The translations under genes and the position numbers were made by a program. Below, in pieces: positions 18,178 to 21,088 of a DNA stretch of 64,000 nt. A model generated the notes under the pieces. That model had not been told where the DNA came from. It saw only the letters and a program-made list of their open reading frames with translations, and made no database searches. How positions within the stretch are numbered: position 1 is the first letter of the stretch; each line of letters begins with the position of its first letter. Source of the DNA: Chloroflexi bacterium bin125 (lineage in GTDB: Bacteria > Chloroflexota > Dehalococcoidia > Bin125); NCBI GenBank assembly GCA_002239025.1, contig MPNM01000014.1, positions 1-64,000 of the forward strand, given 5' to 3'.

Positions 18178-19176
18178 ATGAGACTTGGCATCCTGGCCGG
18201 ATTCGACGCCAACTGGCAGGACACATTGGAGAAGGTCAAGATCGCTGAGGACCTTGGCTACGAAATGATCTCCACCGGCGAGGCCTGGGGACACTCCGTG
18301 TTGCCCTGGCTTACAGTGATCGCCGCCAACACCGACAAGATCCAGATCGGCACGGGCATCCTCAACACCTTCTCGCGATCGCCCGGCGCCATTGCCCAGG
18401 AATTCGCGACGCTCGAGACGATCTCCGGCGGCCGCATGGTTTGCGGACTCGGCTCTTCGGGCAACCTGGTGATCGAGGGATTCCACGGCGTCGAGTTCGA
18501 TCGTCCGCTGCGCCGGATTCGCGAATACACCGAAATCATCAAAATGTTGCTCAGCGGTCAGCGGCTGCAATACGAAGGCGAGATCTACACGTTGCAGCGC
18601 GGATTCCGGCTGCTGGGATTTCAGCCCGTACGTGAAGACCTGCCAGTCTGGATCGCGGCGATCACGCCGCGCTCAATCCAGCAGACTGGTGAAATTGCCG
18701 ATGGCATCTACCCAATCCATTGGCCAAAGAAGTCGTTCGAGCCGCTCAAGCGCCAGCTTGCCGGCGCATCGCGCGACGCAGGCCGCCCGGAAGACTCCGT
18801 CACGATTGCACCCTTCACCAACGTCTACGTCACTGGCGAGGGTGACGACGAGTCGGTCTGGCGCAACGCTCGGCAGCCGCTCTTCCACTACACGAACCGG
18901 ATGGGCTCGTTCTACTGGCAGATGCTCTCCCGCTCCGGCTACGAGTCGGAGATCAAGGACTCACGCGCTGCCTGGGCCGACCGCGATTCCGAGGGCGCGC
19001 TGATGGCGTTCTCAGAGAACATGGTCCGCGAGATCCAGGTGATTGGATCGATTGAAGAGGTGCCGGATCTCCTGCAAGCGCGATCCGACGCCGGCGCCGA
19101 ACTGCAGATGGTTCCGCTGCCCCGGGGCACGACGGCTGAGGTCGGGCGTCGGCTCGAGCAGTACCTCGGTGGATAG
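18178..19176 (+). CDS. LLM class (luciferase-like) flavin/F420-dependent oxidoreductase
   Basis: This 332-residue TIM-barrel oxidoreductase is of the luciferase-like superfamily. It has the N-terminal strand MRLGILAGFD, the loop EAWGHSVLPWLTVIAANTDKIQIGTGILN (a characteristic T-x-x-I-x-x-G-T-x-I element), GGRMVCGLGSSGN (flavin phosphate loop), and PVWIAAITPRSIQQTGEIADG near the C-terminal barrel strands. Members use FMN or F420; which one cannot be decided here, although F420-using methylene-tetrahydromethanopterin-reductase-like members are common in Chloroflexota. It is the first gene of the run LLM - Rdx - UGSC selenoprotein - partner, with 21 bases to the next start. A role in delivering oxidised or reduced substrate to the selenoprotein is inferred only. 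Confidence 0.9.
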   Translation: MRLGILAGFDANWQDTLEKVKIAEDLGYEMISTGEAWGHSVLPWLTVIAANTDKIQIGTGILNTFSRSPGAIAQEFATLETISGGRMVCGLGSSGNLVIEGFHGVEFDRPLRRIREYTEIIKMLLSGQRLQYEGEIYTLQRGFRLLGFQPVREDLPVWIAAITPRSIQQTGEIADGIYPIHWPKKSFEPLKRQLAGASRDAGRPEDSVTIAPFTNVYVTGEGDDESVWRNARQPLFHYTNRMGSFYWQMLSRSGYESEIKDSRAAWADRDSEGALMAFSENMVREIQVIGSIEEVPDLLQARSDAGAELQMVPLPRGTTAEVGRRLEQYLGG

Positions 19177-19197: not shown

Positions 19198-19449
19198 ATG
19201 TCCGAGCAACAGATTGCAATCGAGGTCGTCTACTGCGCCGACTGCGGCTACTGGCCGCGGACGTCGTGGATGCTGGGCGAGTTGATGACCGACATCCAAC
19301 ACATGGTCTCCGACGTGAAACTGATTCCGGACACCAAAGGCCTCTTCGAGTGGAAGGTCAACGGAGAACTGGTCTTCAGCAAGGCTGCGATGGGCCGGTT
19401 CCCCGACATGGATGAGCTGCGCGAGATAATCTACGCCCATCTGGACTGA
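19198..19449 (+). CDS. Rdx family SelW/SelT/SelH-like thioredoxin-fold protein (Cys form)
   Basis: This 83-residue protein is of the SelW/SelT/SelH (Rdx) family. The redox loop directly follows strand one: IEVVYC13ADC16GYW. In SelW the second redox position is often selenocysteine; here both are cysteine codons. The later strand-turn GLFEWKVNGELVFSKAAMGRFPD matches the family's F-E-(V/I)-x-x-(N/D)-G-x-x-(I/V)-(F/W)-S-K motif, which makes assignment firm. Rdx proteins are small thiol reductases or bind glutathione/protein thiols. Its position 23 bases before a selenocysteine protein suggests that it is the electron donor or resolving partner. That pairing is inference. Confidence 0.9.
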   Translation: MSEQQIAIEVVYCADCGYWPRTSWMLGELMTDIQHMVSDVKLIPDTKGLFEWKVNGELVFSKAAMGRFPDMDELREIIYAHLD

Positions 19450-19472
19450 GCTGTTCGACGAGCAGGAGCAGA

Positions 19473-20033
19473 ATGATGGCTGAAACAATTGAAGTTCTGA
19501 GTCCGCTAGCTCATGTCGCCGTGCATGAGGCGACTCCTGCGCCGCGCCCACTATCTCTCGATGGCCTGCGGCCGGGCATCCTGGAGAACCGCAAAGCCAA
19601 CGCCCGTCTGTTGATGGAGACGATGGTTGAACGTCTTGGCGAACGGTTTGATCTGGGTGAGATGGTGGTCGGCAGCAAACCGGTCGGCGGACCGCCATCA
19701 GACTCGACGATTGACTCATTGCGCAACGGAGCCGACTTCCTCCTGATTGGGAGCTGCGATTGAGGAAGCTGCACGACGTGGAGTGTCCACGCCTCAGTCC
19801 TCTTCGAAGAGATGGGAATTCCCACCGTTACGGTGGGCACATCGGCCTTTACCGACCTGCTGCAACTGGAAGCCGAGCAGCGCGGTCTGCCCGAACTTGA
19901 CCGACTAATCGTGCCGCATCCGCTGGGCGGCCTCAGACCGGAACGCGTACGCGCCCGGATCGATGATGGCGTCCTTGATCGATTGGAAGCGGCGCTGCTC
20001 GGACAGGCGCCCAGTCAGGCGGCTGGATCGTGA
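19473..20033 (+). CDS. UGSC family selenoprotein (in-frame TGA = selenocysteine 97)
   Basis: The gene opens at ATG 19473 (AGGAG five bases upstream) and reads continuously to 20033 if the TGA at 19761-19763 is decoded as selenocysteine. This gives 186 residues with Sec97. Around the TGA the protein reads LLIGSCD-U-GSCTTWSVH, the defining U-G-S-C motif of the UGSC (seleno)protein family, whose non-Sec relatives have Cys there. Upstream and downstream parts share one frame, and the downstream segment (EEMGIPTVTVGTSAFTDLLQ, VPHPLGG) is clearly coding. A SECIS-type hairpin follows the TGA. Sec97 and Cys100 would make a selenenylsulfide redox pair; a further Cys is at 95 (SCDU). The true stop TGA (20031-20033) overlaps the GTG of the next gene. 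The biochemical function of the family is not known to me. Confidence 0.92.
19762..19795 (+). promoter_or_regulatory. Candidate bacterial SECIS element
   Basis: The mRNA just 3' of the Sec codon can fold into a perfect 6-bp stem CGTGGA (19777-19782)/TCCACG (19786-19791) with loop GTG. The loop starts 19 bases after the TGA and its first base is G. Both features meet the published bacterial SECIS rules (16-37 bases, G among the first two loop bases). A lower helix GAGG (19762-19765, including two bases of the TGA) with CCTC (19792-19795) can close beneath an 11-base one-sided bulge. SelB binding is inferred. Confidence 0.75.
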
Positions 20034-21088
20034 CGGCAGCACGCGGCCGAGAGGCTGAACGATTCACGCTGCCGTCCGATCCGTTTGATTTTTCACAGGA
20101 GTGCATCCGTCGCGGCTGGTCGGATGGACTGCCGCTTGTCCCGCCCACGACTGAGCGCGTTGCGGCGACGCTGGAGAGTACAGACCGCGACCCGCTCGAC
20201 GTGCTTGGCGTGCTTTCACCGCGTCAGGGCGAGGCGACGGTCCAGGGCATTGCGATCAATGCGGTGATGGCGGGCTGCAGGCCGCAGCAGTTTCCGATCG
20301 TGCTTGCTGCCGTCGAAGCGATATCCCAACCTCCATTCAATCTCGATGGGATCAATGCGACCACGCATCCCTGTGCTGTGTTCGTCCTGGCATCAGGACC
20401 CGCAGCTCGTTCGGCCGGCATTCATGGCGGATCGGGTTGCTTTGGCCCGACCTTTCCCTCCAACGCGACGATCGGGCGCGCCGTCCGATTGGTGCAACTG
20501 AATATCGCCGGCGCAACGCCGGGTCGCGGCGATCGAGCGACGCAAGGCACGCCAGCCAAGTTCGCGTTCTGCGCCACGGAGCGCGAAGATGCCTCGCCCT
20601 GGCCGCCGTTTCAATCCACCCGAGGGCTGAATGCGGAGGACAGTTGCGTCACGACCTGGGCCTGCGAGGGCCCGCACAACATCCAGGACCACGGCAGCAA
20701 CACGGCAGCCGGGATCTTGCAAACGGTCGCCGGCGCCATGGGACAGGCAGGATCGAACAACATCCTGGGCAAGGGCGAGCCGGTCCTGGCCTTTGGTCCT
20801 GAGCATGCCGAGACCGTCGCCTCGGAAGGCTGGACGCGAGAAGGCGTGCAGGAATACCTCTGGGAGAACGCTCGCTACCCGGCCAGCAAGCTGAGCGAGG
20901 AGTTCCTCGAGTCCGTCAACATCCGCATGGCCGGCGGCGTGTTACCGACCCACAGCTCCGACGAGTGGCTGCCAATCTCGGACAGGCCGGAGGAGATTCA
21001 CATCATCGTCGCCGGCGGTCCCGGCAAGCACTCCTGTTGGATGCCAACGTTTGGCGGCATGACTCGTCCGGTGACAGTGTCGCTGTAG
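20030..21088 (+). CDS. Conserved protein of unknown function, partner of the UGSC selenoprotein
   Basis: This 352-residue soluble protein has no domain I can name with confidence. Its GTG start overlaps the selenoprotein stop by four bases (GTGA), so the two are translationally coupled. The N-terminal half has DFSQECIRRGWSDGLPLVPPT and a segment rich in Gly/Pro (SPRQGEATVQGIAINAVMAGCRP). The middle has HGGSGCFGPTFPSNATIGRA and EDSCVTTWACEGPHNIQDH, with several Cys. The end has IHIIVAGGPGKHSCWMPTFG. The string SCVTTWAC resembles the GSCTTW of the selenoprotein, possibly by chance. There is no signal peptide and no membrane segment. A role as a catalytic partner is inferred from coupling alone. 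Confidence 0.8.
   Translation: MTAARGREAERFTLPSDPFDFSQECIRRGWSDGLPLVPPTTERVAATLESTDRDPLDVLGVLSPRQGEATVQGIAINAVMAGCRPQQFPIVLAAVEAISQPPFNLDGINATTHPCAVFVLASGPAARSAGIHGGSGCFGPTFPSNATIGRAVRLVQLNIAGATPGRGDRATQGTPAKFAFCATEREDASPWPPFQSTRGLNAEDSCVTTWACEGPHNIQDHGSNTAAGILQTVAGAMGQAGSNNILGKGEPVLAFGPEHAETVASEGWTREGVQEYLWENARYPASKLSEEFLESVNIRMAGGVLPTHSSDEWLPISDRPEEIHIIVAGGPGKHSCWMPTFGGMTRPVTVSL

Follow-up and report, generated by a model that had tools for sequence, protein, structure and literature searches.

The window analysed here, the whole 64,000-nucleotide stretch of contig MPNM01000014.1 from Chloroflexi bacterium bin125, carries on its forward strand a gene of the UGSC selenoprotein family (positions 19473–20033). 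The standard code splits this gene into two open reading frames (19473–19763 and 19812–20033); with the in-frame TGA at 19761–19763 (+ strand) read as selenocysteine (Sec97 of a D-U-G-S-C motif), it encodes a single protein of 186 amino acids followed by a stop. The product matches the Pfam UGSC family PF24696 (E = 5.7e-40; 137.7 bits, above the curated cut-off of 25) and the NCBIfam family NF041046 (E = 1.1e-30), in the latter case with 106.6 bits, under the equivalog cut-off of 125. By these profile scores it is a member of the Pfam UGSC family, not the NCBI equivalog NF041046, and falls in a divergent branch. UGSC-containing proteins have been described as selenoproteins and rank with the most frequent of these in marine metagenomes (PMC2398784), and the window protein shares both the D-U-G-S-C motif and the family score with them. 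Its closest relatives in the genome collection are from Chloroflexota/Dehalococcoidia metagenome-assembled genomes. Directly upstream, on the same strand, lies a gene for a SelW/Rdx-family redox protein in its Cys form (CADC; 19198–19449; PF10262, E = 3.7e-18; TIGR02174), and further upstream one for a luciferase-like (LLM class) oxidoreductase (18178–19176, + strand; PF00296, E = 2e-65). The downstream gene (20030–21088, + strand) encodes a partner protein of 352 amino acids, and its GTG start overlaps the UGSC stop (GTGA).

The genome encodes the machinery needed to decode such a codon, i.e. a tRNA-Sec with a TCA anticodon, SelA (515.7 bits), SelB (above its cut-off, with the SelB-wing_2 and wing_3 domains, two winged-helix domains) and SelD, the selD gene itself containing a TGA. 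Four UGSC genes were found in this genome, each with one TGA. Among 215 aligned homologous loci, 201 have TGA at the same site, 11 a Cys codon and 3 other codons, and both the adjacent Asp and the Cys of UxxC are invariant in the alignment.

Just after the TGA, within the coding sequence, direct reading confirms the perfect 6-bp stem with a GTG loop of the original prediction. The 5′ arm CGTGGA (19777–19782, + strand) and the 3′ arm TCCACG (19786–19791, + strand) form six Watson–Crick pairs around the apical loop GTG (19783–19785, + strand), and the spacing was also correctly given: the first stem base is the 14th after the TGA, the loop is 19 nt away and its first base is G. Published criteria for bacterial SECIS (bSECIS) elements ask for a loop of 3–9 nt, a stem of 4–16 bp, G in one of the first two loop positions, 16–37 nt between UGA and loop and a minimum free energy (MFE) of at most −7.5 kcal/mol (PMC13188914, a review). 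The window hairpin has a 3-nt loop, a 6-bp stem, G in first position, a distance of 19 nt and an MFE of −7.6 kcal/mol for its 19-nt core, so that the proposed match to bacterial SECIS geometry holds for this upper hairpin. Loop, stem, spacing and core energy are thus those of the consensus model, and nothing lies outside it; the spacing lies near the lower limit of 16–37 nt and hardly departs from 19 nt in most of the family. Further marks of a bSECIS were found in the conservation of the structure in selenoprotein homologues, its relaxation in Cys homologues and the presence of SelA, SelB, SelD and tRNA-Sec. An Rfam scan of positions 19400–20200 at E values up to 10 returned chance eukaryotic matches only.

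Comparison with relatives, which had been proposed as a check, gave a clear answer: the stem pairs covary. Of the 187 distinct sequences with TGA, 134 have a best model hairpin that is spaced exactly 19 nt from the TGA and closes a loop of 3 nt, and most of the remainder show variants in which the loop is longer or the spacing differs. Pairing and covariation were analysed in 150 representatives, with stem columns numbered from the base after the TGA. The six stem pairs of the common register are formed in 90% of cases; none of the twelve neighbouring registers exceeds 58%. The four variable stem pairs (18–24, 16–26, 15–27 and 17–25) are the top four MI-APC pairs among 45 columns, and pair 18–24 is paired in 135 sequences, compared with 72 when partners were shuffled among sequences (maximum 91 in 1000 shuffles). 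On a protein tree from which the motif had been left out, parsimony assigns to the stem about 38 changes in which both bases of a standard pair were replaced to give another standard pair.

No hairpin of at least 5 bp in the simple model was detected in 14 of the 187 TGA homologues, one of them a paralogue in the present genome (L028, motif UGGC) that retains TGA; L219 and L220 are similar, and copies of this type possibly use a different SECIS shape. A subgroup with the motif USTC (L203, L205, L206, L209, L210 and L211) is likewise without the model hairpin.

The original prediction also included a lower helix that uses bases of the TGA itself. GAGG at 19762–19765 can pair with CCTC at 19792–19795 (span 19762–19795, + strand), RNAfold draws this helix in the MFE structure of the 40-mer (−11.7 kcal/mol), and in the window sequence it pairs the TGA region with 19792–19799. 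A larger composite element with this helix as a functional part is nevertheless very improbable, and this portion of the claim did not hold: all four lower pairs form in only three of the 150 representatives, most of which form two or fewer. Once the UGA occupies the decoding site, a helix that includes this codon could no longer exist. The lower helix, present here and confined to close relatives of the window sequence, is probably not functional, and the upper hairpin is the part we retain as the bSECIS.

Taken from the window alone, the hairpin is not significant; comparison of the homologues shows it to be overwhelmingly non-random. The MFE of 40–61 nt of window sequence gives z scores of −0.01 to −1.10 against dinucleotide shuffles, and the 19-nt core a z score of −2.27. 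The comparison with shuffled sequence, put forward as a refuting test, is therefore uninformative here, and relying on it would have led to the finding being wrongly rejected. Synonymous recoding with the peptide fixed produces a stem of 6 bp or more in the same register in 8.6% of cases and anywhere in the model in 13%, and the accompanying caution that coding constraint is strong was right for one sequence. These figures, together with the strong conservation of the peptide, are what speaks for the stem as a mere by-product of the protein motif C-T-T-W-S-V-H, with no function in the RNA. This explanation is even less probable than the composite element, and a test at synonymous codons refutes it: all 43 sequences with TGC as codon 6 use GTG for the Val at codon 8, and all 37 with TGG as codon 6 use GTC there (Fisher P = 1e-23, a value that, like the other probabilities quoted, ignores shared ancestry, although the changes do recur on the tree). 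The last two bases of codon 7 open the loop, and wherever this codon encodes Ser it is AGT (134/134), a codon used for only 81 of 1357 Ser residues (6%) elsewhere in the same genes. In 149 clusters, a stem of at least 6 bp was present in 102, against 8.7 expected under exactly such a null, i.e. synonymous recoding with the peptide fixed. Pairing is also kept while residues change (CGTACA/TGTACG, CGGCCA/TGGCCG and TCGCGCA/TGCGCGA). Because synonymous sites covary with their stem partners, the coding explanation is excluded, and there is selection on the RNA structure beyond that on the protein.

Homologues that carry Cys in place of Sec behave differently. None of the eight homologues with the motif CGSC has AGT as codon 7, and the stem in register measures 0, 0, 0, 9, 0, 1, 0 and 1 bp, i.e. 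seven of eight have 0–1 bp, in a small sample with one exception. The exception, a haloarchaeal Cys form on a Halorientalis plasmid (L165), has a 9-bp, G-U-rich stem at the place of the SECIS, which could be a remnant from a Sec-containing ancestor or a product of chance.

That the TGA is a true stop, in a pseudogene or in a pair of overlapping genes affected by a sequencing or assembly error, is the least credible reading and can be practically dismissed: it has in its favour that the standard-code frame ends at 19763 and an open reading frame starts at 19812, but 201 homologues from many genomes share a TGA at this codon, the three other copies in this genome each contain a single TGA, the reading frame and protein conservation run on past the TGA, and the Sec machinery is present. 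We are thus left with the upper hairpin as, almost certainly, a real bSECIS element that would let the UGA at 19761 be read as Sec, because of the covariation, the synonymous-codon bias and the Cys homologues among its relatives. With the gene family and the decoding machinery of the genome both observed, SelB binding and actual Sec insertion would follow established knowledge of such elements. With the UGA at 19761 in the A site of the ribosome, the C-terminal winged-helix domain of SelB would bind the 6-bp hairpin, whose 5′-G loop lies 19 nt downstream, and SelB would deliver Sec-tRNA-Sec, so that the UGA would be read as selenocysteine and the 186-amino-acid UGSC protein completed. The signal is a correct and ordinary example of a bSECIS in a known selenoprotein family, the protein of which is still uncharacterised; in the literature found, no function has been characterised for UGSC.

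The predicted structure of the UGSC protein (pLDDT 93.5) is flavodoxin/CheY-like, a model that differs from the Trx-like fold guessed previously (PMC2398784). Foldseek searches with it returned generic Rossmann/flavodoxin/CheY-type matches only, which point to a fold class and not to a function, and searching the sequences of solved structures with profiles for UGSC and for the partner gave nothing credible. A more specific relationship was found with GrdB and PrdB, i.e. glycine/betaine/sarcosine reductase selenoprotein B and D-proline reductase (TIGR01917, TIGR01918 and TIGR04483). Thirty-two of 44 UGSC members match TIGR01917 (best E value 2.3e-6), the window protein itself reaching 10.5 bits, far below the cut-off of 602.2 for a full-length match, and a profile–profile comparison (hhalign) of UGSC with eight GrdB proteins gave an E value of 1.2e-6 and a probability of 90.7%. 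Sec aligns on Sec, with UGSCT set against the UGTxT of GrdB/PrdB, and a downstream (V/I)PHPLG is common to both. Judged by these profile comparisons, UGSC is a homologue of the C-terminal domain of GrdB/PrdB, the one that bears Sec, and of that domain only: unlike GrdB, UGSC is a stand-alone domain of ~180 amino acids without the N-terminal ~340 amino acids, and an unrelated partner of ~350 amino acids adjoins it instead. Short open reading frames on four contigs of this genome (C19, C23, C26 and C51) are matched by the PF07355 GrdB model over its C-terminal part only (about 204–345) and, on this match, could be further PrdB/GrdB-like proteins.

In 83 loci a homologue of the partner lies next to UGSC and on the same strand, and in 21 the two are fused in frame. 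The partner at 20030–21088 matched no Pfam or NCBIfam family, and comparison with the GrdB profile revealed no similarity. In the homologue alignment Cys83 is invariant and Cys181 nearly so. The structure model of the partner, computed with four rows from plasmid records left out, is confident but shows no clear known fold; its Foldseek matches, to fumarate hydratase, are weak (TM about 0.25) and not meaningful. A fusion of UGSC to a domain called ‘Unknown_1’ has been mentioned (PMC2398784), and the partner may be this domain. Going beyond our results, we tentatively infer that UGSC and its adjacent or fused partner of ~350 amino acids might form an uncharacterised two-component, GrdB-like Se-dependent reductase, in which the Sec domain familiar from glycine reductase would act together with the partner as a substrate-binding protein of a new family, a reading we hold as a possibility rather than an expectation.

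Since the TGA is recoded, positions 19473–20033 should be annotated as one selenoprotein of 186 amino acids and not as two fragments. Public plasmid records show the same split: two members of the family, on Acidovorax plasmid p2-T1 (L169) and Paracoccus plasmid pFER4 (L170), also contain TGA followed by this hairpin and are annotated as hypothetical fragments. A bSECIS conserved across the family, with perfect synonymous covariation and nearly fixed spacing, makes a useful training set for SECIS models, and the GrdB/PrdB homology together with the conserved partner provides a concrete functional hypothesis for UGSC, a selenoprotein family abundant in marine metagenomes.
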